From a bacterium (GTDB taxonomy: Bacteria > Patescibacteriota > Minisyncoccia > Phycocordibacterales > CAIZLB01), in assembly GCA_027490575.1 (NCBI GenBank), contig JAIXXV010000023.1, forward strand, positions 1-39,781: DNA of 39,781 nt. The letters run 5' to 3'. Below, in pieces: positions 5,095-35,104 of this stretch. Numbering within the stretch: position 1 is the first letter of the stretch; every line of letters starts with the position of its first letter. The notes beneath the pieces are model-generated. The model searched no databases and was not told the origin of the DNA. It saw only the letters and a list, made by a program, of their open reading frames with translations. Position numbers and translations under genes: made by a program.

Positions 5095-7803
5095 ATGCCA
5101 CCATTCAATCATTTTACAACAAAAGCAAAAGACGCCCTTAAAAAAGCCCATGAATTAGCCATAGAAAGGGCACAGAACCATGTGAGCCCTATGCACATGC
5201 TTACAGCACTGCTAGTCCAAGAGGATAGTATCGTTTTTTCTGTACTTGAGCGTATGGATGTCGACACTATACTTTTGACAGACAATGTTTTGGAGGCTAT
5301 CGAAGGAAGTGACTCAGGATCAACTCTTTCTCCTTCGTATCAACTTTACCTAACACCAGAGCTTGCACAGATTATCGAGAACTCTGCAAAAGTTGCAGCT
5401 TCTATGAAGGATGAGTTTGTGTCTATCGAGCACTTGTTCTTATCTATCTTTGATACTTCAAATGTCGCGCGAGACATGTTGTCTAGATTTAAGATTGATC
5501 GAGAAGGTATTTTGAAAGCTCTACACGAGCTAAAACAAAATAAATCTTCAGGTCAGGAAACTGGCGGTAATAAAAAGATGAAGGCTATAGCAAAGTACAC
5601 ACGTAACTTAACTGCTATGGCACGTGAACATAAACTCGATCCTGTGATCGGTAGAGATATGGAAATCATGAGAGTTATACAAATACTTTCAAGACGTACT
5701 AAAAACAACCCTATACTTATAGGTGAAGCTGGTGTTGGTAAGACAGCTATTGCAGAGGGCTTGGCCAACCGTATTGCCATGGGCGATGTGCCGGACTCAT
5801 TGAAAGATAAAGAGCTAGTGTCGCTAGATCTTGGTATTTTGATTGCAGGTACAAAGTACAGAGGTGAATTTGAAGAAAGATTGAAAAATATTTTAAAAGA
5901 AATTGAGAAGTCTGATGGTAAAATCATTCTCTTTATCGATGAAATACACACTATAGTAGGTGCAGGAGCAGCTGAAGGCTCACTAGATGCTTCAAATATG
6001 CTAAAACCAGCTCTTGCTAGAGGTGAGCTTCGTGCCATAGGAGCAACTACTCTAAAAGAGTATCAAAAGCACATTGAAAAAGACCCTGCTCTACAGCGAC
6101 GTTTTCAGCCTGTATATGTCAATGAGCCTTCTGTAGAAGACGCTGTTGCAATACTTCGTGGTCTAAAGGAAAAATACGAGCTTTATCACGGTGTGCGTAT
6201 CACTGATGATGCTATCGTGTCAGCTGTAAGTCTTTCTAGTAGATACATAAGTGACCGTTTCTTGCCTGACAAAGCAGTGGATCTGATAGACGAAGCTGCT
6301 TCTACTTTGAAGATTTCACTGGAGAATAAACCAGCCGAGTTAGAAGATGCGCATAGAAAGATCATGAGACTTGAGATAGAAAAGCAAGCATTAACCAATG
6401 ATATAAAAGCCACTTCAGATAAAAATGTCGCTCAAAAATCAAAAGATAGACTAAAAGAAGTGGAGGAAGATATAGCAAATCTACGATCTGGTACTACAGA
6501 AATAGAAGCAAAGTGGATAAATGAAAAAGAAACTCTTGCAGATATCAAAAATATCAAGAAGCAACTTGAGTCTTCGAGACAAGAGGCTGAAAGTGCCGAA
6601 GTAAAAGCAGATCTGTCAAAGGTTGCTGAGATAAGATATGGAAAGATACCAATGCTAGAGAAGGATCTAGATATAAAGACTAAGAAGCTAAAAAAACTGC
6701 AAGTGTCTAGACGCATTCTCAAAGAAGAGATCAATGAACAAGAGATTGCCAATGTAGTTTCAAGATGGACTGGTATACCTGTTTCAAGAATGCTTGAAGA
6801 AGAAGCTAGAAAGCTATCTCGTATGGAAGAGGACTTGCAAAAACAAGTTGTAGGCCAAGATCAGGCTGTAAAGCGTATTGCGGACACTATAAAACGTTCT
6901 CGTGCGGGCATAAATGACCCTCAGAGACCTATTGGCTCATTTATATTCCTAGGACCAACTGGTGTAGGTAAAACAGAGCTTACAAAGGCATTGGCCAAGT
7001 TTATGTTTGACGATGAAAAGGCACTTATCAGAGTGGATATGTCTGAGTACATGGAAAAGCATGCTGTTTCAAAGATTATAGGCGCTCCACCTGGATATGT
7101 TGGACATGAGGATTCTGGTTCGCTGACTGAGACTGTAAAGCATAGACCGTATTCTGTGATACTTTTCGATGAGATTGAAAAGGCTCACCCGGAGATTTTC
7201 AACGTGCTTCTACAGGTACTTGATAATGGTCGTCTAACTGACTCTAAAGGTAGAACTATAAACTTCAAGAATACTATCATTATCATGACATCAAATATCG
7301 GTGCTCAATACATCGACAAGATGCAAAAGATAGGATTCTCAGCAAGTACAAGTGATGGTCAAAACTATGAAGAGACAAAAGAGAAAGTTATGGAATCTTT
7401 GAAGGAACACTTCAGACCCGAGTTCATAAACAGACTCGATGAGATTGTTATCTTCGACATCTTAAGTCAAAAAGCTATCCGAAGTATCGTAGAAATAGAG
7501 CTCGACAAGATAAAGAAAAGACTTGAAGACAAAGAGATCAAGCTTGAGTTTACTGAGTCAGCTATCGAGTATCTAGCAAAAGAGGGTTACAACCCACAAT
7601 ACGGTGCTAGACCGCTCAAGAGACTTATACAAAACAAGATACTAAACCAAGTGGCATCTATGATCATTGATCAAGGTGTGCACAAGGGCGGGGTAGTGAA
7701 AGTAGACTTTAGTACTAAGCAGACTGACTTTTCTTTTGAAATAAAGAAGGGGAAGAAGGGTGCGATTCTTGGAAAAAGCCTAGTTGCTACTAGTACTCAA
7801 TAA
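5095..7803 (+). CDS. clpC: ATP-dependent Clp protease ATP-binding subunit ClpC-like
   Basis: Clp N domain, two Walker A motifs (GEAGVGKT, GPTGVGKT), coiled M-domain, and KIGFS at the position of the ClpP-binding loop. Confidence 0.9.
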   Translation: MPPFNHFTTKAKDALKKAHELAIERAQNHVSPMHMLTALLVQEDSIVFSVLERMDVDTILLTDNVLEAIEGSDSGSTLSPSYQLYLTPELAQIIENSAKVAASMKDEFVSIEHLFLSIFDTSNVARDMLSRFKIDREGILKALHELKQNKSSGQETGGNKKMKAIAKYTRNLTAMAREHKLDPVIGRDMEIMRVIQILSRRTKNNPILIGEAGVGKTAIAEGLANRIAMGDVPDSLKDKELVSLDLGILIAGTKYRGEFEERLKNILKEIEKSDGKIILFIDEIHTIVGAGAAEGSLDASNMLKPALARGELRAIGATTLKEYQKHIEKDPALQRRFQPVYVNEPSVEDAVAILRGLKEKYELYHGVRITDDAIVSAVSLSSRYISDRFLPDKAVDLIDEAASTLKISLENKPAELEDAHRKIMRLEIEKQALTNDIKATSDKNVAQKSKDRLKEVEEDIANLRSGTTEIEAKWINEKETLADIKNIKKQLESSRQEAESAEVKADLSKVAEIRYGKIPMLEKDLDIKTKKLKKLQVSRRILKEEINEQEIANVVSRWTGIPVSRMLEEEARKLSRMEEDLQKQVVGQDQAVKRIADTIKRSRAGINDPQRPIGSFIFLGPTGVGKTELTKALAKFMFDDEKALIRVDMSEYMEKHAVSKIIGAPPGYVGHEDSGSLTETVKHRPYSVILFDEIEKAHPEIFNVLLQVLDNGRLTDSKGRTINFKNTIIIMTSNIGAQYIDKMQKIGFSASTSDGQNYEETKEKVMESLKEHFRPEFINRLDEIVIFDILSQKAIRSIVEIELDKIKKRLEDKEIKLEFTESAIEYLAKEGYNPQYGARPLKRLIQNKILNQVASMIIDQGVHKGGVVKVDFSTKQTDFSFEIKKGKKGAILGKSLVATSTQ

Positions 7804-9453: not shown

Positions 9454-9525
9454 GGGTCCATAGTTTCAACGGTAAAACATCGCACTCCAAACGCGAGGTT
9501 CGAGGTTCGAGTCCTCGTGGGCCCG
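9454..9525 (+). tRNA. tRNA-Trp (CCA)
   Basis: GGGTCCA/TGGGCCC acceptor, CTCCAAA anticodon loop, GGTTCGAGTCC T-arm, discriminator G. Confidence 0.93.
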
Positions 9526-16903: not shown

Positions 16904-18169
16904 ATGTTAGATATAAAATTCATAAGAGAAAATAAAGATTTGATAAAGGACGGTGCTAGAAAAAAGCATATGGACTTTGATGTGGACAAACTCATTGAGG
17001 TAGATGCTGCAAGAAGAGAGTTACTTGTGTCTATGGAGTCAAAGAAAGCTGATCAAAATCAAATCAGCCAAAGGATAACTACTGAGTCTGATCAAGAGGT
17101 TAGAAATGCGCTTATAGAAGAGACTCGTACGCTCAAGGAGTCTATAAAAGCAGATGAAGAAAAGTTGGCTGAAGTTATGAAAGAATGGCAACTTCTTATG
17201 GTCTCTACTCCTAACATCCCAGATATATCTGTGCCAGAAGGTGAGTCTGATGCAGACAATATGGAAGTAAAAACTTGGGGAGAAGCAAAGACTTTTCCTT
17301 TTGAAGCAAAGAGTCATATAGACATCATGGAAAAGCTTGACCTTGCTGATTTTAAAAAGGGCACTGATGTTTCTGGATTCAGAGGATACTTTTTGAAAAA
17401 TGCTGGAGCCGAGCTTTCTCTTGCTATATGGATGTATGCAAGAGATTTTTGGACCAAGAAGGGATTTTCTTTCATGATTGTACCTTCACTTGTAAGAAGA
17501 GAAACTTTGTTCGGTACAGGATATCTTCCACAAGGTGAAGAGGATTTATACAAAACTCAGGACGGAGACTTTTTGGCTGGTACTGGTGAAGTTGCAACTA
17601 TGGCTTACTTTGCTGAAAGTGAGATAGCCAAGAGCGAATTACCAAAAAAAGTACTAGCTTTTTCACCTTGTTTTAGAAGAGAAGCTGGTTCACATGGTAA
17701 AGATGTTAAAGGTCTCATACGTGTACATGAGTTTTTCAAGATGGAGCAAGTTGTGCTTTGTGAAGCGAGCCATGAAGAAAGTGTAAAGCTTCACGAAGAG
17801 ATCAACAGAAACACTGAAGAGTTTATTGAGTCTCTAAATATTCCATACAGAACAGTTGTAAACTGTGGAGGCGACTTAGGTCTAGGTCAGGTTAAAAAGT
17901 ACGATATAGAGCTTTGGGTTCCTGGTGAGCAAAAGTACCGTGAGATAAGTTCAGCTTCATATTTCCATGATTTTCAATCAAGACGCTTGAACATCAAGTA
18001 TAGAGATCAAGAAGGTAAGTCTCGTTTTGTTCACTCACTAAACTGTACCGCTATACCTACCCCTCGTATTTTGGTGTCACTTATTGAGAACTATCAAAAT
18101 GAGAATGGTGAGGTTTTGATACCCGATGCCCTCAAACCATATATGGCTGGTAAAGAGATAATCAGATAA
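16904..18169 (+). CDS. serS: Seryl-tRNA synthetase
   Basis: MLDIKFIRENKDLI coiled arm, class II motifs FRREAGSHGKDVKGLIRVHEFFKMEQV, C-terminal NCTAIPTPRILVSLIENYQNENGEVLIPDAL. Confidence 0.96.
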   Translation: MLDIKFIRENKDLIKDGARKKHMDFDVDKLIEVDAARRELLVSMESKKADQNQISQRITTESDQEVRNALIEETRTLKESIKADEEKLAEVMKEWQLLMVSTPNIPDISVPEGESDADNMEVKTWGEAKTFPFEAKSHIDIMEKLDLADFKKGTDVSGFRGYFLKNAGAELSLAIWMYARDFWTKKGFSFMIVPSLVRRETLFGTGYLPQGEEDLYKTQDGDFLAGTGEVATMAYFAESEIAKSELPKKVLAFSPCFRREAGSHGKDVKGLIRVHEFFKMEQVVLCEASHEESVKLHEEINRNTEEFIESLNIPYRTVVNCGGDLGLGQVKKYDIELWVPGEQKYREISSASYFHDFQSRRLNIKYRDQEGKSRFVHSLNCTAIPTPRILVSLIENYQNENGEVLIPDALKPYMAGKEIIR

Positions 18170-18248
18170 CAGTTATCAGATATCAGGTAACAGATATCAG
18201 GTATCAGTTAGCAGATAGCGGTTAACAGGTGACAGATGGTAGGTGGTA
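18165..18248 (+). repeat. Degenerate heptanucleotide tandem array, 12 units in exact phase, spanning the serS stop codon
   Basis: GATAACA GTTATCA GATATCA GGTAACA GATATCA GGTATCA GTTAGCA GATAGCG GTTAACA GGTGACA GATGGTA GGTGGTA. Confidence 0.9.
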
Positions 18249-18281
18249 AAAAGTGTTAGGATAAAAGAACATTAAATAAAA

Positions 18282-19226
18282 ATGAAGTTTAGTTCAAATT
18301 CATCTAAAGATTTTCTAAAATCTCAAGCGGTTTCTCGAAGGAGACGAAAAAAGAAGTTCGTGAGATTGTATTTATTTATTTCTCTATTTATTGTCCTCTT
18401 GATTGGTTTGGTTTTGTTATTGAGACTTGAGAGATTGCAGATAAGAAATGTAGTTGTTACTGGAAATGTGACTCTATCTGAGCAGGAGATTGAAGATTTT
18501 GTAAATAATATTATTGATTCAAATTATTTATTTTTAATACCAAAAAGAAATAGTTTGATATACCCTGCCGACACAATACAGGCTTCTATAAAAAATAAGT
18601 TTTTAAGGGTCGCAGATGTCTCAATGGACACAGAGTCTTTTGAATTTTTAAATGTGAAAATAACTGAGCGTAAAGCTGTTGCCAAGTGGTGTAATCCTGT
18701 GGACTGTTATGTTATAGATGACAATGGATATGCCTTTAGTAAATACGAGGATCCATTAGCTACTGATCAACAAAACCTAGACCTTTTGGTGTTTACAGGT
18801 ATGGATGAAAGCATAGGTAGCGAGCCTTTGGGAAAAAATATAATACCGAAAGAAATGGTTACTAAGTTTCTGGAGCTAAAGGTCGTTCTTGAAGGATTTG
18901 GTCTAACGGCCGAAGAACTTGAGTATAGGAGTAAAGATGAAATTGTCTTCAAGATAGATGGATCTGGGCGAATCATTTTAAATGAAAGACGACCACTTGA
19001 AGAGTCGATGAATAATCTAAAGACTGTTCTTGATTCTGAAGTATTCAAAGGTAAACTGGAAAGTATGGATTATATTGATACTCGTTTTGGTAATAAAGTT
19101 TTCTACAAGTTTAAAAACCAGGAGGCATTGAGTACTGAAGGTGGCAATACAAGCAATACAAATGATACGGGTGCTACAAGTACTACAAGCACTGCGAGGG
19201 CAACCACTACGAGATCTACAAGATAA
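18282..19226 (+). CDS. FtsQ/DivIB-like cell-division protein (TM plus POTRA)
   Basis: Basic N-terminus, single TM, LQIRNVVVTGNVTLSEQEIEDFV POTRA start, KITERKAVAKW. Confidence 0.75.
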   Translation: MKFSSNSSKDFLKSQAVSRRRRKKKFVRLYLFISLFIVLLIGLVLLLRLERLQIRNVVVTGNVTLSEQEIEDFVNNIIDSNYLFLIPKRNSLIYPADTIQASIKNKFLRVADVSMDTESFEFLNVKITERKAVAKWCNPVDCYVIDDNGYAFSKYEDPLATDQQNLDLLVFTGMDESIGSEPLGKNIIPKEMVTKFLELKVVLEGFGLTAEELEYRSKDEIVFKIDGSGRIILNERRPLEESMNNLKTVLDSEVFKGKLESMDYIDTRFGNKVFYKFKNQEALSTEGGNTSNTNDTGATSTTSTARATTTRSTR

Positions 19227-19272
19227 GGTATTTTTTAAAACAAAGCATTTTTATGATAATATGTCTAAGTAA

Positions 19273-20358
19273 ATGAATCTAAACTTTAACTTAGTAAAAA
19301 CAGATATCCACGGCGAGCCAGACTATAAGTCATATATTAAATGGGGTCTGGTTATAATGCTATTTGGAGTATCAACAACTTCTTTCTTGGTTCAAGGTGC
19401 CTTGGCTTTGAAAGACGCAGTCTTTGGACCAAATGATTCGGAACAGACAATGGCTCTCGACGGTCAAAATGGGCGAAATGGATCAGGTCGAGTCGTTGGT
19501 AACAACTCGTATGATAATCCTAGGGGTTCAGATGATATAAACTCGGGTGCTGGTCAGGTGTCACAAGATGCAAATACTGAGATTGTCCCAAATGATTACA
19601 CACTACTAAACAATACTGCTTTTCCAAGAACATCTGGTAGAGCTTTTCTTGCAGCGGATTTGGAAACTGGTGAGATAATCATTGAGCAAAATGAAGACTT
19701 TGTCTCACCCGTTGCTTCAGTGACTAAACTTATGACTGCTTTGATTGCCTATGAGAAAATGGACCTGCAAAAGTACGCTATCGTGTCTAGAGACGCCTAT
19801 AATACATACGGTGGTCAAGGAAAGCTTAACTTGGGGGATAAGATAAAAATATTTGACCTAATGTATCCTGTTTTGATGGAATCAAGTAATGACGGAACTG
19901 AAGTCGTAGCTGAAGCCTACGATACAGGCAGAGCGGGGTTTATGCTTGAGATGAACAGAAAGGCAAAAGAGTTGCAAATGTTCGATACATATTACGATGA
20001 TCCAAGTGGTTTAAGTCCTAGAAATGTTTCGAGTGTGAGAGATTTAATGAAGTTGGGAAGATATATTTATCAAAAAGACCCTTCTCTATACGATATGACC
20101 AGAGTGAGACAGTACTCTATACTCGGAAGAACATGGAATAACCAAAATAGGCTCCTGAACTATAACTATTTCCTTGGTGGTAAAAATGGCTATATAGACG
20201 AAGCTAAAAAGACTACTGTTTCTTTGTTTGAAATACCGATGGCCAAAGGAGGCAATAGAAAAATTATCATTACGCTTTTGAAGAGTGATGACCGAGAAGG
20301 AGATGTACTAAAGATTATTGATTATCTGAAGAAGAATGCGGTTTATAATATAAAGTAG
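19273..20358 (+). CDS. D-alanyl-D-alanine carboxypeptidase (S11 family)
   Basis: SVTKLMTALIA (SxxK), ESSNDGTEVVAE (SxN), GGKNGYIDEAKKT (KTG position reads KNG). Confidence 0.88.
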   Translation: MNLNFNLVKTDIHGEPDYKSYIKWGLVIMLFGVSTTSFLVQGALALKDAVFGPNDSEQTMALDGQNGRNGSGRVVGNNSYDNPRGSDDINSGAGQVSQDANTEIVPNDYTLLNNTAFPRTSGRAFLAADLETGEIIIEQNEDFVSPVASVTKLMTALIAYEKMDLQKYAIVSRDAYNTYGGQGKLNLGDKIKIFDLMYPVLMESSNDGTEVVAEAYDTGRAGFMLEMNRKAKELQMFDTYYDDPSGLSPRNVSSVRDLMKLGRYIYQKDPSLYDMTRVRQYSILGRTWNNQNRLLNYNYFLGGKNGYIDEAKKTTVSLFEIPMAKGGNRKIIITLLKSDDREGDVLKIIDYLKKNAVYNIK

Positions 20359-20366
20359 AGCTCAGT

Positions 20367-20395
20367 TTGACGCATAAACCTATGAATGTTATTAT
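20367..20395 (+). promoter_or_regulatory. Consensus sigma70 promoter of the 20401-20849 unit
   Basis: TTGACG (20367-20372), 17 nt spacer, TATTAT (20390-20395). Confidence 0.75.
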
Positions 20396-20400
20396 TTAGA

Positions 20401-20666
20401 CATCAGAAATCAGTAATGACAGCAAACAAGGTCATTGATAAGGATTGCAAATATGCAACACCTCTCCCGAAAAGGAGTCAATATCAATGACCTTTTGTCA
20501 TTGGTGAGAATCACTCAGGTCCGTCGAGACCTGCTGCGGACGTAGCAAGGGTTACTGCGAAAACGTGCGCAAACAAAATTGACTGTTTTTTGGGAGGGGA
20601 GTTGGCAATGAGCCGACACTTAGCTTAGTCAGCTAAGCGAATAATAAACCCTTCCACCAAAAGCCT
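20401..20666 (+). ncRNA. Candidate structured RNA or long structured 5' leader
   Basis: GGTCATTGATA (20430-20440)/TATCAATGACC (20482-20492) 11-bp stem; competing CAATGAC-CTTTT-GTCATTG; CAGGTC-CGTCGA-GACCTG (20516-20533); GCTGC-GGAC-GTAGC; CTTAGC-TTAGTCA-GCTAAG; mini-ORF with SD GGAGGGGA + ATGAGCCGACACTTAGCTTAG. Confidence 0.6.
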
Positions 20667-20849
20667 ATGTTTAGAGCTATTGGTTTTGTTATCGGTCTCA
20701 TTGCTATCCGAGTGCTAATGCCAGGTGTATTCCATGCACTTGAGCAGGCACTTATCATGTTCTTTAGTTTGATTAGCCATGTGTTTGCATCTGCACCACA
20801 AGATGTCACTCAATTTGGCGCAGTAGGGTACGCCGGATTTTCCTACTAA
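20667..20849 (+). CDS. Small hydrophobic (two-helix) protein, 60 aa
   Basis: MFRAIGFVIGLIAIRVLMPGVFHALEQALIMFFSLISHVFASA...; own upstream promoter and downstream terminator. Confidence 0.6.
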   Translation: MFRAIGFVIGLIAIRVLMPGVFHALEQALIMFFSLISHVFASAPQDVTQFGAVGYAGFSY

Positions 20850-20897
20850 AACAGCCTCGGCTTTAATCAAACATGACTCCTTATGAGTCGAATACAA

Positions 20898-20926
20898 ATA
20901 ACCGTCCTCTATGGGCGGTTTTGTTT
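20898..20926 (+). terminator. Terminator of the 20401-20849 unit
   Basis: AACCGTCC-TCTAT-GGGCGGTT followed by TTGTTTT. Confidence 0.75.
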
Positions 20927-21021
20927 TGGCTAATTATTTATTTGTGATCGAAAATGCTTCGAAAAGAAAAGTGTGAGAATTTCAATCATTTACAAATGTG
21001 TGGTATAACACATGTACATAA

Positions 21022-22359
21022 ATGTCAGCTATAAAATTCAACATAACCAAAAAGCTAAGTGATGAGATTACGGGTGCGAAAGGCCGAGTGGGTGTTTTGT
21101 CGACCAAGCATGGTGATATAAAAACCCCGGCTTTTGTTACTGTCGGTACAAAGGCTACTGTAAAAGGCATTACCCCTGAAATGCTCAAAGATACAGGTGC
21201 TCAAGTCATGCTTGCAAATACTTATCACTTGTATCTACAGCCTGGTGATGAGCTTATACATAAAGCTGGAGGATTAGGAAAATTCTCAGGGTGGACAGGG
21301 CCGACTATGACTGACTCCGGTGGTTTTCAAGCGTTTTCACTCGGTGCTGCATATGGCAAAGATCTTGGTAAGCTTACTAAAGCTAAAGAAGTAGCGGGAG
21401 AACTAGCTGGGCAAGAAGAGATACCGCTAACTGAGCAGACTGAGACAACTATTGCGCAGAAGTCAAAAAAAGATGGCAGGTCAAATGATACAGCACAAGA
21501 CGGCTCACCATTAAAACCTGCTCAGGTTGATGAAAACGGCGTAATGTTTCGTTCGGTCATAGATGGCAGTGTGCATTATTTTACGCCTGAAAAGTCTATT
21601 GATATTCAACACAATATTGGTGCGGATATCATTTTTGCATTTGATGAATGTACTTCGCCAACAGAATCATTTTCATATCAAAGGCAATCGATGGACAGAA
21701 CACATAGATGGGCAAAGCAATGTCTAAGGCATCATCACAGTAAGGATAATGCAGAAAGTCAGGCGCTTTTCGGTATAGTACAAGGTGGAAGATATGAGGA
21801 CTTGCGAAAAGAAAGTGCTGAGATATTGTCTGGATTGACGGTGACGGATAGAAACGGTGTCGAAGTTGGGTTTGATGGGTACGGCATAGGCGGGTCTTTT
21901 GCAAAAGAAGATATGTCTACGGCAGTGCAATGGGTAAATGATGTCCTACCTGAAGATAAACCAAGGCACTTACTTGGCATAGGTGAGCCTGAAGATCTGT
22001 TTATGGCAGTTGAAAATGGATGCGACCTCTTTGATTGTGTACTACCTACTAGAAACGGGCGAACGGGTACACTTTTTACACGTTTTAGAAAAATAAATAT
22101 AGGCAATAAAAAGTTTCGAGATGATTTGTCTCCGATAGACGAAGATTGTCAGTGTTATACATGTAAAAACTATACTCGTGCTTACTTGGCACATCTTTTT
22201 CATGCAAAAGAGATGTTGGCAGGCACTCTTGCATCAGTTCACAACTTGCATTTTTTGATTCACCTTGTGGATGAGATGAGGGAAGCTATTGAGAATGGGA
22301 GGTTTGAGGAGCTTAAAAAGAATTTTTTGGGCAGATATCAGGAAACAGATAGCAGGTAG
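21022..22359 (+). CDS. tgt: Queuine/archaeosine tRNA-ribosyltransferase-like (Tgt) with an internal low-complexity insertion
   Basis: PAFVTVGTKATVKGITPEML, NTYHLYLQPG, MTDSGGFQAFSLG, FGIVQGGRYEDLR, LLGIGEPEDL, zinc site CQCYTCKNYTRAYLAHLFHAKE. Confidence 0.95.
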   Translation: MSAIKFNITKKLSDEITGAKGRVGVLSTKHGDIKTPAFVTVGTKATVKGITPEMLKDTGAQVMLANTYHLYLQPGDELIHKAGGLGKFSGWTGPTMTDSGGFQAFSLGAAYGKDLGKLTKAKEVAGELAGQEEIPLTEQTETTIAQKSKKDGRSNDTAQDGSPLKPAQVDENGVMFRSVIDGSVHYFTPEKSIDIQHNIGADIIFAFDECTSPTESFSYQRQSMDRTHRWAKQCLRHHHSKDNAESQALFGIVQGGRYEDLRKESAEILSGLTVTDRNGVEVGFDGYGIGGSFAKEDMSTAVQWVNDVLPEDKPRHLLGIGEPEDLFMAVENGCDLFDCVLPTRNGRTGTLFTRFRKINIGNKKFRDDLSPIDEDCQCYTCKNYTRAYLAHLFHAKEMLAGTLASVHNLHFLIHLVDEMREAIENGRFEELKKNFLGRYQETDSR

Positions 22360-22368
22360 CAGTTAATT
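22334..22368 (+). repeat. Degenerate heptanucleotide array spanning the tgt stop codon
   Basis: GATATCA GGAAACA GATAGCA GGTAGCA GTTAATT; same family as 18165-18248. Confidence 0.8.
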
Positions 22369-22403
22369 GTATCCGGATTGAATATTGATAAATATAAAAA
22401 TTA

Positions 22404-22432
22404 AAAAGCGGCACAATTTCTTGTGCCGCCAA
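22404..22432 (-). terminator. Terminator of the minus-strand 22464-23213 gene (possibly bidirectional)
   Basis: GCGGCACAA-TTTC-TTGTGCCGC with T's on the minus strand. Confidence 0.7.
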
Positions 22433-22463
22433 ATTTAGACCTATCTATCGGTTCAGTCTAGAC

Positions 22464-23213
22464 TCACTCATCCGAATCGATTTGTGCATCCAGAGCCTTT
22501 ATGCTCAGTTTCGTTCGGCTTTTGTTGCCTTCAATCTCTTCAAGAGTCTTTTTGAGGTCTTGATTCTGCTTTTCATCCTTGCATTCATCTAGCCTCTTTT
22601 GAACGATTTCTCTCCACTCTTCCAAGACCCCTTTTGAAAGGTGTAAAGTGGAAAAACGACTGACAAGTACTTCGAATAGTTGCCTTGCATTTTCATCGCA
22701 CGACATTCTGGATTTTTCACACTCAACCATAGCTTTTGCTATCACATTCTCTACGGTTGGGATAATAGAAAGAATACTCTCGTCACACGCCTTCAAGAAC
22801 TCATGTCCTTCAAGACAACTCGTCATACTAGATGCTAGACTATCTGCCAATTCGTTCAACTTGTCCTGAATCCTTCCATTGAATTCTTCATACCAGTTTC
22901 CGTCTGTGTAGAAGAATCCCCACTTCCTGGCATAATCAAGTTCACCCACTGATTTAGCCTCCTTAATGGAAATACTTGTAAGATTAATCCATTTATCGAT
23001 AGCTTTTTTGAAAAGCGGGTATGGGAAAACAGAACTATCATGATCTACATGGAACAGTCTTTTTAATTTCATTTCGACCAGGATTTTAATCTCCATCAGC
23101 GTATTGGAATTTTCAATAGCCGAAGTAACGTCAGTTTTATCTCGAAGCTTAATTTGTCTAATCTCCAGCTCCACTTCTTTTTGGTCTTTTTCTGCCTTTG
23201 TTGCTGAACTCAT
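22464..23213 (-). CDS. ORFan, 249-aa charged helical/coiled-coil protein
   Basis: SD AAAGGAGGTATAAATG; promoter TTGAAA-N17-TATAGT; own terminator. Confidence 0.75.
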   Translation of the reverse strand: MSSATKAEKDQKEVELEIRQIKLRDKTDVTSAIENSNTLMEIKILVEMKLKRLFHVDHDSSVFPYPLFKKAIDKWINLTSISIKEAKSVGELDYARKWGFFYTDGNWYEEFNGRIQDKLNELADSLASSMTSCLEGHEFLKACDESILSIIPTVENVIAKAMVECEKSRMSCDENARQLFEVLVSRFSTLHLSKGVLEEWREIVQKRLDECKDEKQNQDLKKTLEEIEGNKSRTKLSIKALDAQIDSDE

Positions 23214-23265
23214 TTATACCTCCTTTTTTGGTTGTTTTATCGAGTCAAAGATCGATTTTGTTAAC

Positions 23266-23294
23266 ACTATACTCTTTACAGGGTTAATTTTCAA
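23266..23294 (-). promoter_or_regulatory. Promoter of the 22464-23213 ORFan
   Basis: Minus strand TTGAAA (23294-23289), 17 nt, TATAGT (23271-23266). Confidence 0.6.
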
Positions 23295-23368
23295 GTAATT
23301 GTAGTTAAGGTTATTTAAGGATTAACACATGATCCTTGTGTATTATGAGACATTATAAATCATTTTAA

Positions 23369-23749
23369 CTAAGAATTTTTAATTCCTCTGCTTTTGCCAT
23401 TTTTATACACCGCGCGCATGTACTTCGAAAATGCTTTACCAATCATCTCAAGTTTTTCTGTAGTCAGCTTATTGTAATCTTCCTGGGTAAGCCATCTTTT
23501 CTCATTGATTTCTTGTATGTGCTCTGTTGCGTCGCCTAAAATCTGCATTCTATCCATAAAGAATTCATTTAGTGCTCCTATGTGACGATTATATTCCTCC
23601 ACAGCCTCTTTGCTCAACATTTTCAATATGTTGTCAGATAGTTCCACTGCCATAAATTTATTGTTTGTTTTAATCATCATGTCCACTTGTTTTATTGTTG
23701 CAAAATCGTCAGATTTTTTGCTTTTTTCTTTAACTTTAAATGTTTTCAT
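23369..23749 (-). CDS. Hypothetical helical protein, 126 aa
   Basis: Uninterrupted ORF with coding-like composition; no family recognised. Confidence 0.55.
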   Translation of the reverse strand: MKTFKVKEKSKKSDDFATIKQVDMMIKTNNKFMAVELSDNILKMLSKEAVEEYNRHIGALNEFFMDRMQILGDATEHIQEINEKRWLTQEDYNKLTTEKLEMIGKAFSKYMRAVYKNGKSRGIKNS

Positions 23750-23884
23750 TGTAAATATTAATATTACTAATATCTACAGTCTAGTAAAACCATGTGATGT
23801 AATATTCAATTTAATCTATAGAAAATATGAATAAAATTCGTACTGTGGAAAAAACTCTCCATATCTAGTATCATTGACCTATAT

Positions 23885-26269
23885 ATGCCAAAAGCGCCAA
23901 AAAAACCTTCATCAAAAGTCCCCGACCTGAGCTCAGATAAGTCTAAGGCGGCTAAAAACGCGGATTCCAGTGGCGTGAATGCTAAAAGTGCGAGCGCAAA
24001 CACAGCTGGCCTCTTCAAACTAAACACCGAATTCACTGCAGCGGGCGATCAGCCGACAGCGATAAAGTCACTCGTCGATGGCGTGCATGCTGGTCACAAG
24101 TACCAGACTCTTCTGGGTGTTACGGGCTCGGGTAAGACTTATACAGCAGCGAACGTCATAGCTCAGGTAGGAAAGCCGACTCTTGTTATTGCGCACAACA
24201 AAACTCTCGCAGCTCAACTTGCTCAAGAGTATAAAGAGTTTTTTCCTGAAAATGCGGTGCATTACTTTGTTTCGTATTATGACTACTATCAACCGGAGGC
24301 TTACATATCTCATTCAGATACATATATAGAAAAGGAGGCTCAGATAAACGAGGAGATTGACCGTTTACGACACGCTTCCACGCAAGCCTTACTCACCAGA
24401 AAAGATGTCATCATAGTGGCATCAGTTTCTTGTATCTATGGTTTGGGTTCTCCTGAAGAATACGAAAAGGTAAACCTAAAACTTGCCAAAGGTCAAAACG
24501 CCGACAGAGCAGACTTGATGCGTAAACTTATCTCAATGCAATTCACGAGAACTGCGGGAGATTTGTCACCGGGAACATTTAGAGCCATTGGAAATACTTT
24601 GGAAATCATGCCAATCAATGAGCGTGTGATATTTCGCATGGTTTTTGCGGGGTCTGGACCAAAGAGTTCGATAGAGACAATACACAGTATTAATGAGATT
24701 ACACGTGTCATGGAAAGTGAGATGGATGTTTTCTATCTATTTCCAGCCAAGCACTTCGTAACTCCTGAAGGCGAGAGACAAAGGGCTATTGTGGATATAA
24801 AGGCGGAGCTGGATGCACAGTTGGCGCGTTTTGAAAAAGAAGGCAAGGTTATAGAAGCTGAGCGTATTAAACGTAGGACAAACTATGATTTGGCTCTGAT
24901 CAGAGAGGTTGGATATTGTAGCGGTATAGAAAACTATTCGAGACACTTTTCAGGTATGGCGCCAGGAGAGGCTCCTGATACACTGCTCTCGTATTTTCCG
25001 CACAAGGTAGTTGAGGTGAAAGATCCTAAAACTGGAAAGCTTGTTAGTAAGCGTGTGCCGGATTTTCTAACTATCATTGATGAGTCGCATGTGAGTGTTC
25101 CACAGATAGGGGGAATGTTTGCTGGTGATGCATCACGTAAGAAGAACCTGATAGATTTCGGTTTTAGACTTCCATCTGCAGCTGATAACAGACCTTTGAA
25201 GTTTCCAGAGTTCGAAGAGAGGGTTGGGCAAGTGGTGTTTACTACTGCAACACCTGGAAAGTTTGAGATTGAGCACAGTAAAAATGTAGCGGAGCAGATC
25301 ATTCGCCCTACTGGACTTATAGATCCTGTGTTGGTAGTGAAGCCTGTGACTTCACTTAAGGTTTCTGCTGACAGTACTAGCGCTGAGAAAGGTACTAAGG
25401 GCTCTGGTGCAAAGAGCGCCAAAGGTGCCGATGATAAGGGTGCAAAAGGTTCTGTTGCTAAGGGCGTAGGTGCGAAAAAAACTGATGCGTATGCCGGGCA
25501 AATATTTGACTTCATTGAAGAAGCTGAAAAAGTTATAAAGAATGATCAAAGGGCCATTGCTACGACTTTGACAAAAAAGATGGCAGAGGATTTGACTGCG
25601 TACTTGAAGGATAGAGGTATTAAAACAAACTATGTTCACAGTGATGTGGAGACACTTGATCGAATAAAGATTTTGACTGAGTTTAGAAAAGGTGTTTTTG
25701 ATGTACTAGTGGGTGTTAACTTGCTTAGAGAGGGTCTAGACCTACCCGAAGTATCACTCATAGGTATACTTGATGCCGACAAAGAAGGGTTCTTGCGTTC
25801 TGAAACTGCATTGATACAAACCATAGGTCGTGCTGCAAGAAACATCGATGGTAGGGTTATACTATATGCAGATCGCATGACTGGATCACTTGAGAGAGCC
25901 ATCAAAGAAACCAATCGTCGTAGAACAATACAACTTGTATACAATGAAAAGCATGGCATCACTCCAAAAACCATTGCCAAGAAAATCCACGACATCACTG
26001 AGCAAATACTAAGTGAGCACCAAAAGACTGTGCGAAACATGTTAGTGATAGACGGAGAAGAGTTCAACAAGAGTCCTAAAAAATTTATTAAACAAAAAGA
26101 AGATCAAATGGCCGAAGCGGTAAAGATACTTGATTTTGAAACAGCGGCAATACTTAGAGATGAAGTGCTAGAACTCAAGAGACGTTTTGAACTAACAGAA
26201 AAGAAAGCTAAAAAAGCCGAGAGAGATGCGACGAAGGGGATTAGAGGGAAGAGGCAGAGTTTTCAATAA
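23885..26269 (+). CDS. uvrB: Excinuclease ABC subunit B with N-terminal extension and K/G/A/S-rich insertion
   Basis: GVTGSGKTYTAANVI, VSYYDYYQPEAYI, FTTATPGKFE, GVNLLREGLDLPEVSLIGILDADKEGFLRS, C-terminal UVR motif. Confidence 0.97.
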   Translation: MPKAPKKPSSKVPDLSSDKSKAAKNADSSGVNAKSASANTAGLFKLNTEFTAAGDQPTAIKSLVDGVHAGHKYQTLLGVTGSGKTYTAANVIAQVGKPTLVIAHNKTLAAQLAQEYKEFFPENAVHYFVSYYDYYQPEAYISHSDTYIEKEAQINEEIDRLRHASTQALLTRKDVIIVASVSCIYGLGSPEEYEKVNLKLAKGQNADRADLMRKLISMQFTRTAGDLSPGTFRAIGNTLEIMPINERVIFRMVFAGSGPKSSIETIHSINEITRVMESEMDVFYLFPAKHFVTPEGERQRAIVDIKAELDAQLARFEKEGKVIEAERIKRRTNYDLALIREVGYCSGIENYSRHFSGMAPGEAPDTLLSYFPHKVVEVKDPKTGKLVSKRVPDFLTIIDESHVSVPQIGGMFAGDASRKKNLIDFGFRLPSAADNRPLKFPEFEERVGQVVFTTATPGKFEIEHSKNVAEQIIRPTGLIDPVLVVKPVTSLKVSADSTSAEKGTKGSGAKSAKGADDKGAKGSVAKGVGAKKTDAYAGQIFDFIEEAEKVIKNDQRAIATTLTKKMAEDLTAYLKDRGIKTNYVHSDVETLDRIKILTEFRKGVFDVLVGVNLLREGLDLPEVSLIGILDADKEGFLRSETALIQTIGRAARNIDGRVILYADRMTGSLERAIKETNRRRTIQLVYNEKHGITPKTIAKKIHDITEQILSEHQKTVRNMLVIDGEEFNKSPKKFIKQKEDQMAEAVKILDFETAAILRDEVLELKRRFELTEKKAKKAERDATKGIRGKRQSFQ

Positions 26270-26275
26270 AAAAGC

Positions 26276-26315
26276 GCACTTACCTTTGAGGGGTAAGTGC
26301 GCCGTGGGTGTCAGT
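26276..26315 (-). terminator. Terminator of the 26328-26645 gene
   Basis: GCGCACTTACC-TTTGAG-GGGTAAGTGCGC with TTTTTT on the minus strand. Confidence 0.75.
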
Positions 26316-26327
26316 TGCTTGTGGTAA

Positions 26328-26645
26328 CTAGACGTTGAGGGGGTCTTTCAGGTCGCGAAGCCAGTCAGCAATTAGCGTGTTGTCATCGATCGATCTCAAC
26401 GTGTAGGTATCGAACAAGGTTGCTGATGTTGGAACTTTGGCATTGCTTAGCACGTCTTTAAGTACCACTTTTTCCGCTGGTTCCATAACCCGAATCCAAT
26501 CAGAACGCTCTGTGCCAATGACAACAGACGCCTCATCAAGATTCCTGGTCAAGCTGTTACCGCTTTGAATGACATAACTCTCGAGCGAAGGTATTAAAAC
26601 CGCACCCTTTACTTCTGGTAGGATGTGAATGAGCATAGCCACCAC
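26328..26645 (-). CDS. ORFan, 105 aa, GTG start, immediately downstream of gpmI
   Basis: SD-like AGAGGTG before GTG; own terminator; starts 14 bp after the gpmI stop. Confidence 0.6.
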   Translation of the reverse strand: MVAMLIHILPEVKGAVLIPSLESYVIQSGNSLTRNLDEASVVIGTERSDWIRVMEPAEKVVLKDVLSNAKVPTSATLFDTYTLRSIDDNTLIADWLRDLKDPLNV

Positions 26646-26659
26646 AATCTACACCTCTG

Positions 26660-28231
26660 CTATACCTGTGTCAACAAATTCACACCTGTCATCCCTTCAG
26701 GCACCTTCAATCCATGCAAAGTAAGTATAGTCGGAGCAATATCAGCAAGTGAACCACCGTCGCGCAGTCGCACAGAAACATCAGTCACTATAGCGGGTAC
26801 CGGATTTGTAGTATGAGACGTGTGTTTCTCTCCAGTGATAGGATCAACATTTAGCTCAGCGTTGCCGTGATCTGCTGTGATGAAAGCGACACCTCCTCGT
26901 GCTTCGATGGCATCGATAACTCTTCCTAGCTCGACATCGACTTTTTCTATGGCAGTTATGATAGCTGGAACATTTGCAGTATGACCAACCATGTCTGGGT
27001 TTGCGAAGTTTATAAATATGAAGTTAGTACCAGCATTGATTTCTTCGACTGCTTTGTCTGCTATGGATTGCGCTCTCATCTCAGGTGCTTGGTCGTGAGT
27101 TTGTACGTCTTTTCTACTAGGTAGTAGTAAGTCTTTCTCGCCATCGTATGGAGTCTCTACTCCACCATTCAAAAAATAAGTAGCGTGAGGAAACTTCTCT
27201 GTCTCAGCAATATGAGCTTGAGATAGGCCTGCTTTTGAAATCTCTTTTCCAAGTGTAGTCTCTATATCTATAGGTGAAAATGCGACTAGACATCCTGCTT
27301 CAAGTGAATACTCTGATCCATAAGAGGTAAGTGTGACGAAGCAGATATTTTGATCCTTTGCACGTGCAAGTATTTTTTGTGAAAGCATTCGCGCTCTGTC
27401 TGCTCTGAAGTTGAAGAAAAATACACCGTCGTTTTGACCTATGGCGCAACCTTGTCCATCAGGAGTTGCACATGTCATTGGTTCTAGATGTTCGTCTAGT
27501 TTTCCTTCTTTGTATAATGAGTCTATGAATTCAGACGGCGCTATGTTACAGACACCTCCTTTACAATCAAACAATGCTTGCTCAACTTTAGACAATCTAT
27601 CCCAGTTATTGTCTCTGTCCATGGCGAAGAAACGGCCTGATACAGTGGCAATGAAGGCAATGTGAGTTTCATCATTGATTTCCTTCAAAAGATCCTCGAG
27701 CTCTTTTATATATGCACTTGCACTTTGAGGTGCAGTGTCTCGTCCATCAGTAAATACGTGTATTGCTACTTTTTTAACGCCGGCTCTTTTTGCAGATTTT
27801 ATAAATGCGAAGAGGTGATCAGAGTGACTGTGAACACCGCCTTCACCCAAAAGTCCTTGTACATGAAGCACTGAGTCATGTTGTTTTACATGATTGAAAA
27901 GTTGTTGAAAAGCATGGTTATCAGCGTATTCACCAGAGTCTATGGATTTCTTTATACGCACCAGGTCAGTGTCTATGGCTTTCCCTGCACCTATGGTTGT
28001 ATGACCAATCTCACTATTTCCCATTTGCCCCTCAGGAAGACCAACGGCAAGTCCTGAAGCCTCGAGTAGGGTATGAGGATATTTTGCCCAATACTTATCG
28101 AAGTTTGGCTTGTATGACGCAGCTATAGCATTGTCTTTTGGATCCTCTCTGTAACCCCATCCGTCTAGGACGATGAGCACTGTTTGTTTCGATGTGTCTA
28201 TCTTTGATGTTGTGTTTGTTTGATTAGGCAT
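26660..28231 (-). CDS. gpmI: 2,3-bisphosphoglycerate-independent phosphoglycerate mutase
   Basis: VLIVLDGWGYRE, GQMGNSEIGHTTIGAG, VHVFTDGRDTAP, NFANPDMVGHT, ADHGNAE. Confidence 0.96.
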   Translation of the reverse strand: MPNQTNTTSKIDTSKQTVLIVLDGWGYREDPKDNAIAASYKPNFDKYWAKYPHTLLEASGLAVGLPEGQMGNSEIGHTTIGAGKAIDTDLVRIKKSIDSGEYADNHAFQQLFNHVKQHDSVLHVQGLLGEGGVHSHSDHLFAFIKSAKRAGVKKVAIHVFTDGRDTAPQSASAYIKELEDLLKEINDETHIAFIATVSGRFFAMDRDNNWDRLSKVEQALFDCKGGVCNIAPSEFIDSLYKEGKLDEHLEPMTCATPDGQGCAIGQNDGVFFFNFRADRARMLSQKILARAKDQNICFVTLTSYGSEYSLEAGCLVAFSPIDIETTLGKEISKAGLSQAHIAETEKFPHATYFLNGGVETPYDGEKDLLLPSRKDVQTHDQAPEMRAQSIADKAVEEINAGTNFIFINFANPDMVGHTANVPAIITAIEKVDVELGRVIDAIEARGGVAFITADHGNAELNVDPITGEKHTSHTTNPVPAIVTDVSVRLRDGGSLADIAPTILTLHGLKVPEGMTGVNLLTQV

Positions 28232-28403
28232 ACTTTTGTTAATGAATTAAGTGTACTGATAATATTGAGATGCAAGTATTTTAACATATCTACATAATTA
28301 GATATTATTTGACAAAAATATAAACTGTGTTAATGTTCTGGTCAGAAAGGGATGCGTTTACTCCTTTGATCACAATAACCACAAAAAAAGAAAGGTATAA
28401 AAA

Positions 28404-28589
28404 GTGAGTGAATCCATGATTCGTTACAGAAAAGGCCTAGGACCTTCAACCGTCGAAAAACGTGCTCGTCCCCGGTTCATCGGTCCTGTCCACGCTCCCG
28501 GCACAAGTCGTCGTAAGGAAGAAAATCGTAAGAAGAACCAGAGGCGAGCAGGTCGGCGCAAAGCTGGCTAGCGCAAAGATTCAGGTAAA
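28404..28589 (+). CDS. Very basic 61-aa ORFan (GTG start; absent from the ORF track)
   Basis: MSESMIRYRKGLGPSTVEKRARPRFIGPVHAPGTSRRKEENRKKNQRRAGRRKSWLAQRFR; SD AGAAAGG; TTGACA (28309-28314)-N16-TAATGT; T8 terminator downstream. Confidence 0.55.
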
Positions 28590-28601
28590 TCAAATAATGC
28601 T

Positions 28602-28638
28602 GTGTCATCCATCAAGGGTGATACGGCGTTTTTTTTAA
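28602..28638 (+). terminator. Terminator after the 28404-28589 ORF
   Basis: GCTGTGTCATCC/GGTGATACGGC stem with wobble pairs followed by T8. Confidence 0.65.
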
Positions 28639-28810
28639 TGCAAATATTTCAGAGCTTCAATTTCTTTGACATACCTCATATGAATTTTGTTGTTTAAAAG
28701 CAAAAAATAATGTATATTTCTGCAGTCTCGCCACGGATTGTGGAAGGGGATATTGGACATTTCAGATAATAAGTAAACAACCAACGAATAGAAAATAGGA
28801 GGTCAGTATT

Positions 28811-29515
28811 TTGAAGAAATATTCTGTAGTAAACTTGCAGGAATTGGTCAAGAAGGTCAGGGAGCTCGTTAAATCTGTGATTTTTGTCTTTGGGCCTTCG
28901 GGTGCAGGCAAAGGTTTTGGTATCTGTGATGTGTTCGAGGAGTACCACGCAGGTATTGCATTTATCACAGGTGACTATTGTCGAAATCATCAATCAGAAT
29001 TTTCATCATCTGGAGCACTTGCCCCAGATGATGAGATGTTGGAGTTCGCTCTAGGTTTCTTCGCTAACAAAATCATGGAAAGATCAGGACCAATCAGGCT
29101 TTTGGTCGACATGCCCAGAAAGCAAAGTCAAGTAGAGTCATTCATGGACATGTTTAAGTATATTGGCTATGACGGTCAATTTGGTAGCATTATTTTGAAT
29201 GTTGAACTTGACGACACTGTTGACAGGCTTCATGACAGAGCTAAGCGTCAATCTAGAGGTGATGATCAGAAACCTGAAGTGATTGACCGTCGTGTCACTG
29301 GCTGGTTTGGTTCCCCTTTGGACCAAAAGCTTGATAAACTCGGAATTAATCGAACATTGAAGCGTAATCAGGATGGATACGTCCATACACTGATTCCGTG
29401 GGTCGAAAAAAACACCGTGACTATCAATCTGAATGGGCAGTGTCTGGAAAATCTAAGGAGAACCGTAGAGCTTCAGGTCCCTTACCTGTTCAATGGTTTG
29501 TGGGGTAACAATTAG
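28811..29515 (+). CDS. P-loop nucleotide kinase (adenylate kinase-like), TTG start
   Basis: VIFVFGPSGAGKGFG Walker A; RAKRQSRGDDQKPEVIDRRV lid/NMP-kinase-like segment; SD AGGAGGTCAG. Confidence 0.65.
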   Translation: MKKYSVVNLQELVKKVRELVKSVIFVFGPSGAGKGFGICDVFEEYHAGIAFITGDYCRNHQSEFSSSGALAPDDEMLEFALGFFANKIMERSGPIRLLVDMPRKQSQVESFMDMFKYIGYDGQFGSIILNVELDDTVDRLHDRAKRQSRGDDQKPEVIDRRVTGWFGSPLDQKLDKLGINRTLKRNQDGYVHTLIPWVEKNTVTINLNGQCLENLRRTVELQVPYLFNGLWGNN

Positions 29516-29524
29516 TTATCCAGA

Positions 29525-29575
29525 AGCGCATCTCACGTCCACAAGGACTGTGAGCTCTGCGCTTTTTTTATTTAT
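29525..29575 (+). terminator. Terminator of the 28811-29515 gene
   Basis: AGCGCATCTCACGTCC-ACAA-GGACTGTGAGCTCTGCGCT followed by T's. Confidence 0.75.
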
Positions 29576-29616
29576 ACTTAATCTTTTATTTATCTCATTT
29601 GAGTATAATTTGTTTA

Positions 29617-30015
29617 ATGAAAGATTTTGATAATTGGAATTTCTTAAAGAAGAACATCGAGAACTTCGAGAAGGAAGTGTTTTGTCATACCAGAGAGGTG
29701 TGGTGGTGCTCAATAGGTATCAATATCGGAGTAGAAACAGATGGAAAGAACAAAAATTTTGAAAGACCTGTTGTGGTATTTAAAGTTTATAATATAAACT
29801 CAATATTGATATTTCCAATAACAAGTAAACATAAATACGACAGTTTTCATTGCAAAATATATATAAAAGCTAGGGATCAGGAAGAGTTACAAATAGGATT
29901 TGTTAAGGTAACGCAAGTAAAAGTAGTCAGTACAAAGAGATTGATTAGAAAGATGGGTGTTGTAAACATTGATTCATTTAATGAACTGAGGGATTTCTGG
30001 ATCAGTACTTTATAA
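29617..30015 (+). CDS. MazF/PemK-like endoribonuclease toxin family protein without an adjacent antitoxin
   Basis: REVWWCSIGINIGVETDGKNKNFERPVVVFK...ILIFPITSK...GFVKVTQVKVVSTKRL resembles the PemK/MazF fold; start moved to ATG 29617 just after TATAAT 29604-29609. Confidence 0.7.
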   Translation: MKDFDNWNFLKKNIENFEKEVFCHTREVWWCSIGINIGVETDGKNKNFERPVVVFKVYNINSILIFPITSKHKYDSFHCKIYIKARDQEELQIGFVKVTQVKVVSTKRLIRKMGVVNIDSFNELRDFWISTL

Positions 30016-30168
30016 ACAACATAGAATACCAATAGGGTGGTTATAAAAAAAGGACTCATGAATTGAGTCCTCGGAGGCCGAAGCCATAATACGTACATTG
30101 TACTACTTTATAATTTCAAGTCAAACAAAAATTGTCACAACAAATATTAACTGATAATATATTTACAT

Positions 30169-30828
30169 ATGTCAAATGTATCAAAACAAGATTACAAATG
30201 CCGATACGATGTCATAGCTATCATTGGGCCACAAGGAGCAGGTAAGACGACTCAACTCAAAAAGATTTTAGATAAGACAGATGTAGATTTCGCCCCAGTA
30301 GGCGAAATTTTACGTTCTGTACTTTTGGAATCTGAGAATTTGTCCCCAGAGCTAGAACAAGCAAAGAAAGACATGATAGACGGAAAGATAATATACGATG
30401 AAATAACCTTCAAAATTTTGAAGGATTATTTTTTGCTCAAAAAAGAGAATGGTACAACAAAGGAAACTCTTTTGTTTGAAGGTTTTCCAAGAACCGAGAA
30501 TCAGATAAAGCATTTTTATGAACTATCAAAGACCTACCATGGAAAAGATGAAGAAGGTATAAAGATTGGCATCATACGTTTGAATCTTGATCCAGAGGTT
30601 GCAAAGGACCGCTGTCTGGATAGAGCGAACATACTCGTAAAGAGTGGTGCAAAGGCAAGGCCAGATGATAATGATGAAGCTATTCAAAAAAGACTACAGA
30701 TATATTTTGAAAAAATGAGCCTACTGGAAAATGAGTTTAAAAGTCGTGCTACTGATGTCCATGATTTCCATTGTCATGAGGAAGTGGAGGTTGTGCATGA
30801 GAGGATTATGGACAAGGTTTTTCATTAA
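30169..30828 (+). CDS. adk: Adenylate kinase-like nucleoside monophosphate kinase
   Basis: AIIGPQGAGKTTQLKK, GEILRS, LFEGFPRTENQ, LDRANILVKSGAKARPDDNDEAIQKRLQIY. Confidence 0.85.
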   Translation: MSNVSKQDYKCRYDVIAIIGPQGAGKTTQLKKILDKTDVDFAPVGEILRSVLLESENLSPELEQAKKDMIDGKIIYDEITFKILKDYFLLKKENGTTKETLLFEGFPRTENQIKHFYELSKTYHGKDEEGIKIGIIRLNLDPEVAKDRCLDRANILVKSGAKARPDDNDEAIQKRLQIYFEKMSLLENEFKSRATDVHDFHCHEEVEVVHERIMDKVFH

Positions 30829-30867
30829 CACAGACAAGTTGTTACTTATTAATTAAACTAATTTGTC

Positions 30868-30894
30868 AATAAAAAAAGGAAGCTGGTCAGGCTT
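30868..30894 (-). terminator. Terminator of the 30928-31191 gene
   Basis: AAGGAAGC-TGGTCAG-GCTTCCTT with T7 on the minus strand. Confidence 0.65.
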
Positions 30895-30927
30895 CCTTGG
30901 GTTTTATGACCTTTTTGTGTCATCAGA

Positions 30928-31191
30928 CTAAGCAGGTGTTGATTCTTCTAATCCGAGACGTTTCTTGAGTTCATCGACAATTGCATTTGCCACACTTTCT
31001 AGATCATAGATAAAGACAGATTCGCGAGATTTCATGATATAGGCGGTTGCAAAATCATCGAGAGCATTGTGCACATTGATTCTTAATTCCGATTCATGGT
31101 CTCGGATAAAATTTACAACCTCCTTTCTGTCCAGTTGCATGAAATCTGTCACTACGAAGTCAATTAAACCAGCGTTGTCTGTTCTACTCAT
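30928..31191 (-). CDS. ORFan, ~87 aa acidic helical protein
   Basis: SD GAGGGGG before ATG 31191; promoter TTGACA (31281-31276)-N17-TAATTT (31258-31253). Confidence 0.65.
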   Translation of the reverse strand: MSRTDNAGLIDFVVTDFMQLDRKEVVNFIRDHESELRINVHNALDDFATAYIMKSRESVFIYDLESVANAIVDELKKRLGLEESTPA

Positions 31192-31335
31192 ATTTAACCC
31201 CCTCTGTTGAATGTTCACTTAGCTTTAGCGTCATGCCTTGGCTTTCAATGATAAATTACATATGAATTGAGTCGGTGTCAATACCAGCACTTGAATTCTA
31301 CCTTGAAGTGCATCCAACCTGTTTAAAAATATCCC

Positions 31336-31364
31336 TTGATTTTAATGCTTGCCAGGTGTAATCT
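31336..31364 (+). promoter_or_regulatory. Promoter of the 31427-31996 ORFan
   Basis: TTGATT-N17-TAATCT; GGTGTAATCTT core also at 35009-35019. Confidence 0.5.
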
Positions 31365-31426
31365 TTCCTTTGGCTAATTAGCTATTTGACAATAAACATT
31401 CAACAACAAACAGGAGGATAAATAAA

Positions 31427-31996: not shown

Positions 31997-32025
31997 CAAA
32001 AAGTCTGAACTCCAAAGTTCAACGA

Positions 32026-32060
32026 AGCCAAGAGACTTACAACCTCTTGGCTTTTTTAAA
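32026..32060 (+). terminator. Terminator of the 31427-31996 gene
   Basis: AAGCCAAGAG-ACTTACAAC-CTCTTGGCTT followed by TTTT. Confidence 0.75.
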
Positions 32061-32126
32061 TTCATAAAACCCAACACAAAACCCCGAAACTATGCTAAAC
32101 TTTGAAAAAAGCCCACCCTCTATGAG

Positions 32127-34937: not shown

Positions 34938-34981
34938 CAGGTGGCAGATATCAGTTAGCAGATAATAGCTAACAGGTTTCA
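34933..34981 (+). repeat. Degenerate heptanucleotide array spanning the uvrA stop codon
   Basis: GGTAGCA GGTGGCA GATATCA GTTAGCA GATAATA GCTAACA GGTTTCA. Confidence 0.85.
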
Positions 34982-34990
34982 AGTATTGGT

Positions 34991-35018
34991 TTGACACTCA
35001 CATTTTTTGGTGTAATCT
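34991..35018 (+). promoter_or_regulatory. Promoter of the 35105-35494 ORFan
   Basis: TTGACA-N16-TAATCT. Confidence 0.6.
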
Positions 35019-35104
35019 TGATTTGCTGCTTGTTTGCAGCTGATTCAATCCGGCTCCGCTGGTAAATCATTTGTTCAAAATCAAACTAGAAGGGAATTAA
35101 AAAA

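Follow-up and report, generated by a model that had tools for sequence, protein, structure and literature searches.

In the analyzed window, that is, the whole 39,781-nt stretch of DNA, the serS gene ends within a tandem array of degenerate heptamers, and the tgt and uvrA genes end within arrays of the same kind. The relevant features are:

16904-18169, plus strand: serS (serine--tRNA ligase), 421 aa, with a TAA stop at 18167-18169 (NCBIfam TIGR00414, 445 bits)
18161-18244, plus strand: CAGDTRD heptamer array of about 12 units in the orientation of serS, whose stop codon it includes (18165-18248 in the sequence-only reading)
18245-18281, plus strand: leftover spacer up to the next co-directional gene
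18282-19226, plus strand: the gene after serS, 314 aa, also located 3' of serS in congeners
22332-22365, plus strand: second array of the family, in the orientation of tgt, beginning 25 nt upstream of the tgt stop TAG (22357-22359) and including it
22407-22430, minus strand: intrinsic-terminator-like hairpin with its U-tract placed to serve gene 22464-23213 on the opposite strand and not the array-bearing tgt
34929-34985, plus strand: third array of the family, in the orientation of uvrA and including its TAG stop (34935-34937)

The sequence-only reading reported a 12-unit array without phase slips in the serS 3' region, and this array is real. Twelve back-to-back 7-mers with zero phase slips can be read off directly from 18165 (units 1-6, GATAACA GTTATCA GATATCA GGTAACA GATATCA GGTATCA; units 7-12, GTTAGCA GATAGCG GTTAACA GGTGACA GATGGTA GGTGGTA), and TRF also finds the array, at periods 7, 14 and 21. 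The G..TA..CA unit of that reading is a rotation of the natural CAG-D-T-R-D register (D = A/G/T, R = A/G). In the CAGNTAN register, the top-scoring stretch is 18161-18244, with the final one or two units degraded, and its score is 50.8, whereas 20 first-order shuffles of the window reach no more than 11.9. The first full unit indeed supplies the serS stop codon: the TAA is the T-A-D part of this unit, and the next CAG follows it. The serS 3' spacer is 112 nt long here, 75 of which belong to the array, compared to 91-94 nt by the same measure in the congener, which means that the old spacer was partly replaced or lost. No terminator-like site is found between 18161 and 18281, across the array and the leftover spacer, the 314-aa product of the following gene has no NCBIfam or Pfam matches, and an Rfam search of positions 17000-36000 of the window yields no match at the gathering score. 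The tgt and uvrA arrays match the serS array in motif, orientation and overlap with the stop codon. Elsewhere in the window, there is a short exact repeat of another heptamer, CGAGGTT (2.6 copies, 9494-9511).

The arrays belong to a family dispersed across the genome. We searched the entire assembly (772 kb in 42 contigs, 93% complete) with a 24-nt heptamer pattern allowing up to 3 mismatches and used the same pattern read backwards as the control. The pattern occurs at 143+102 = 245 places compared to 1+0 for the reversed control. In the 569 kb that were read, there are 48 arrays with 287 units, nearly all located at gene ends; the first 352 kb were picked for containing hits, so that array density is biased there but orientation is not. 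Among the 287 units, the first three positions are C in 271, A in 274 and G in 261, and positions 5 and 6 are T in 275 and A in 239 (G in 41). Thus, the conserved positions are 83-96% invariant, whereas the two others, position 4 (A90/T88/G104/C5) and position 7 (A97/T68/G120/C2), accept A, G or T nearly equally and almost never C (7 of 574, or 1.2%). A neighboring segment in a shifted phase is found in none of the 60 array segments. This strict register, together with the position-specific constraint within the unit, fits selection on the unit and, as suggested earlier, on its spacing. The family shows the hallmarks of heptamer simple sequence repeats (STRR), namely a degenerate tandem 7-nt unit in several copies, dispersal in non-coding DNA and restriction to a lineage.

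The units within an array resemble their neighbors no more than random draws would. When the pure (CAGGTAG)n arrays at contig ends are excluded, 9 adjacent pairs are identical compared to 9.8 expected, which, combined with the lack of phase slips, means that simple recent slippage or tandem duplication is not the explanation. Copying of long unit strings among arrays also finds no support because shared words are not in significant excess. There is, however, a slight excess of identical units at a lag of 21 nt (13 compared to 5.9-7.2 expected, P ~0.01-0.02).

Several additional repeats were noticed next to these arrays. Arrays made up purely of CAGGTAG units are found at contig ends or close to them (C10:1-66, C30:1-80 and C29:6182-6219, in stretches L052, L059 and L058, respectively) and probably broke the assembly at these points; after those of C29 and C30 comes an imperfect, AT-rich palindrome that is similar in both, TTGAT.TTTGTCAAGTGC. 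Many arrays are followed on the 3' side by a purine-rich block, GGGGCA(G)GGGGCA, and then by AATTAAG heptamers, so that two heptamer families often occur in series in one orientation (L048 13153-13183, L055 14005-14035, L042 1000-1040 and L052 11507-11540, with minus-strand arrays in reverse-complement coordinates). Such a composite of a CAG array and an AATTA array is rarely conserved in other taxa. In one case (L043 5643-5674), an array of TAATTAG heptamers begins right at the TAG stop of a minus-strand ORF (5669-7042) in the absence of a CAG array, which suggests that the second heptamer family may be anchored at stop codons as well.

The sequence-only reading proposed a check for enrichment at gene 3' ends throughout the genome, and the positions of the arrays relative to simple ORF calls show such an enrichment. 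Among the 42 arrays away from the edges of the stretches that were read, 35 include or adjoin the stop codon of a sense-oriented gene and 3 more are located 27-84 nt past one (together, about 90%); of the other 4, 2 adjoin the end of an opposite gene. A stricter count gives 33 sense arrays against 3 antisense ones. In almost every case, a unit provides the stop codon of the gene with its TAA or TAG, and CAG comes next. For three arrays in total, the 3' end falls on the stop of a gene encoded by the other strand, and these arrays terminate in TTA, the reverse of TAA. Comparison with two congeners places the start of the arrays at the ancestral C-terminus of the protein. Syntenic gaps that carry an array are about 40 nt longer than those of the congener, whereas gaps that do not carry one are not longer, a comparison that includes only 5-6 array pairs per congener. 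Such arrays are absent from 5 congeners and 9 other members of the taxonomic family (14 genomes), with the exception of a single 19-nt stub of 2.7 units, 20 nt after a stop, in one congener. Even in this genome, most genes lack an array (30 of the 476 gene ends examined have one), and the genes that bear arrays resemble random housekeeping genes.

Array-bearing gene ends lack intrinsic terminators. Using a heuristic search for a hairpin followed by a U-tract, we found none at 27 such ends, compared to 6.9 expected from gene ends matched for orientation and free spacer length (P ~1.5e-4), and the arrays themselves do not have the GC-rich hairpin and U-tract of an intrinsic terminator. The orthologues of array genes also rarely have a terminator (2 of 24, compared to 9 of 18 orthologues of genes with a terminator in this genome), and the genes downstream are not enriched in promoter-like -10 boxes relative to other genes; hence the exclusion may simply reflect a tolerance for arrays within operons. 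Thus, either the arrays serve terminator-free ends or they are tolerated only there. The genome also has an unusually bare RNA 3'-end toolkit: in the 93% complete assembly, there is no match to the Rho RNA-binding domain, which is found in 9 of 14 control genomes, nor to the Hfq and RNase PH/PNPase families. The lack of Rho and the small size of the genome would be in keeping with a lineage of the Patescibacteria type.

The sense RNA of the arrays folds better than shuffled sequences. The fold of the serS array has a z-score of -3.17, and across 39 arrays the mean z against dinucleotide shuffles is -2.09 for the sense RNA and -1.11 for the antisense RNA. Shuffling the variable letters within arrays makes no difference (z -0.05, or -0.18 against the unit pool), which indicates that foldability stems from the skeleton, GNTANC plus A, and not from matches among the variable letters; these are not arranged for pairing, which gives no support to selection on hairpins. 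GNTANC is a palindrome, and the trailing A contributes one mismatch per unit. There are 23 G3-to-A changes, which do not follow a wobble-pairing rule, and typical arrays of 40-50 nt fold weakly.

The above description of the array family is very likely right. As for its meaning, we tentatively favor, from the sequence comparisons, a dispersed lineage-specific STRR, or heptameric SSR, family that originated by whole-unit expansion and functions at the RNA level in 3' UTRs. The proposed origin is plausible by analogy with CAG/CTG repeats. Single strands of GNTANC with its unpaired A could form hairpins that keep the register, with an A.A or T.T mismatch every 7 nt, and slip-outs would then add or remove whole units; in another organism, two contigs carrying a related array differ in length by one unit (on the 7-nt scale). 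New arrays would survive just past a stop codon, with the TAA or TAG of the array taking over as the stop of the gene, and selection on unit and spacing would keep them. In the sense RNA, the array might serve as a repetitive 3' UTR element, either binding a protein at regular intervals or folding weakly, at ends that lack an intrinsic terminator in a genome where Rho was not detected. Such a function is our best single guess, held with less than even confidence, and the possibility that the arrays are tolerated debris is nearly as likely. The fact that no reader protein was identified for this putative element counts against it, and the lack of PNPase/RNase PH and Hfq matches weakens the versions in which the array is an exonuclease barrier or an Hfq-type site.

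The alternative that comes close to this reading holds that the arrays are neutral or selfish STRR-type repeats, generated by slippage and template switching, seen only where they are harmless, past the stops of operon-internal genes without terminators, and devoid of function. In its favor, heptamers of this class occur widely but erratically from species to species, the array junctions grew out of short operon-like gaps, some arrays at contig ends are homogeneous (CAGGTAG)n, and the bearing genes resemble a random housekeeping set; Rehm et al. (2015; PMC4692102) likewise found no function for their heptamers and cited polymerase slippage. Taken alone, it leaves unexplained the 33:3 sense bias and the near-absence of C at the two free positions, along with the unequal conservation by position, the dissimilarity of adjacent units and the lack of phase slips. 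The strict register with position-specific degeneracy and the slight excess of identical units at 21 nt could also be accommodated if the array were double-stranded DNA bound in 7-bp steps, with 21 bp amounting to two helical turns, by a repeat-binding nucleoid protein or one that blocks transcription. We consider this unlikely given the strand bias relative to genes, the confinement to gene 3' ends and the lack of a candidate protein; furthermore, blocking at a stop codon would shorten mRNAs.

It is quite improbable that the arrays are transcription terminators, with the RNA hairpin ending transcription in place of an intrinsic terminator. The mutual exclusion with such terminators and the fold z-scores of the serS array and of the arrays overall point in this direction, but no U-tract follows the arrays, those of typical length have weak folds, and the junctions look operonic in congeners. 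The explanation to which we give the least credence, as very improbable, is a translation safety net, in which stops of successive units in three frames would catch readthrough or frameshifts. The sequence-only reading emphasized stops in all forward frames, and these are present in the serS array (4, 1 and 2 per frame, so that all three are closed); the stop of an array-bearing gene is itself a TAA or TAG of the array. Nevertheless, closing the frames does not appear to be the point of the arrays because stops in later units are not above base frequencies (157 of the ~241 downstream units listed, with ~62% expected by our estimate from these frequencies), and the great majority of genes have no array.

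The motif is not confined to this genome. The sequence-only reading knew of no comparable family, but CAGNTAN is present at low copy elsewhere in the phylum, as well as in cyanobacteria and other phyla. In a survey of the phylum, 17 of 380 genomes match at one mismatch, with 136 matches in this genome and at most 12 in any other. Among named genomes, CAGNTAN arrays are found in many cyanobacteria (including Okeania, Microcystis, Calothrix and Scytonema), as well as in Bacteroidetes, Chloroflexi, Poribacteria, Verrucomicrobia and other groups. In these genomes, the CAG strand has its 5' end at a sense stop more often than its 3' end at an antisense stop, by 33:11; the ratio is 34:14 in IMG/VR contigs and 33:3 here. 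One IMG/VR contig, IMGVR_UViG_3300035698_022356 (L262), carries nine sense-strand CAGTTAD arrays at gene ends, with no C at the last position, and recurs in a second metagenome (L239), where 10,070 bp are identical; it is probably either a cellular contig or part of an element from a different lineage that places its arrays similarly. The reversed control, GACDATD, gives 10 matches in each of two genomes of the same phylum (G093 and G107, family f78), which may reflect a further heptamer family or a repeat within coding sequence.

To our knowledge, no function has been assigned to intergenic heptamer repeats in the decades since they became known. The present genome is an unusually clean case, in which a unit with both constrained and free positions is combined with strict register, sense orientation, stop anchoring and terminator exclusion. 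It makes two questions testable: whether selection maintains the arrays as 3' UTR elements or they are tolerated debris, and for what reason the heptamer skeleton and its 5'-end polarity recur across distant phyla. A broader conjecture, that a degenerate 7-nt RNA code starting at the stop codon marks or protects terminator-less transcript ends in the absence of Rho, and does likewise in cyanobacteria, xanthomonads and others, appears doubtful.

Among known systems, the CAG/CTG trinucleotide repeats are self-complementary with one mismatched A or T per unit, and their hairpin slip-outs lead to whole-unit expansion. The CAGDTRD arrays share self-complementarity with them but are 7-nt, degenerate and bacterial, and slippage here is inferred. 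REP/PU elements and the Rho-dependent 3' ends that are trimmed to stem-loops are dispersed 3' UTR elements; the CAGDTRD arrays are similarly dispersed at gene ends but are tandem heptamers rather than palindromic 35-mers, and no Rho was found. The STRR repeats of cyanobacteria (Calothrix PCC 7601) are degenerate tandem heptamers located in intergenic regions in many copies. The cyanobacterial CAGNTAN arrays, unlike those described here, are mostly near-identical CAGTTAT, accept C at the variable positions and are more loosely placed; the arrays of named genomes taken together are likewise mostly homogeneous CAGTTAT and accept C. Nothing specific on such repeats was found in the literature on Patescibacteria and the candidate phyla radiation. 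The closest precedent for the placement comes from Xanthomonas and Nostoc, where the heptamers GGGAATC and GGGGA(C/T)T are enriched up to 50 bp past the stop on the coding strand, overlap stop codons and are transcribed, without an established function (Rehm et al., 2015; PMC4692102), so that stop-proximal heptamers are a phenomenon of a known kind. Those repeats share with the CAGDTRD arrays the stop-proximal, sense-strand location but form G-quadruplexes, peak at four units and also occur antisense upstream of genes, whereas the CAGDTRD arrays have no G-tracts (runs of at least 3 G) and are found almost only at gene 3' ends. What is new here is the unit, the rule of its degeneracy, the strictness of placement and the exclusion of terminators.
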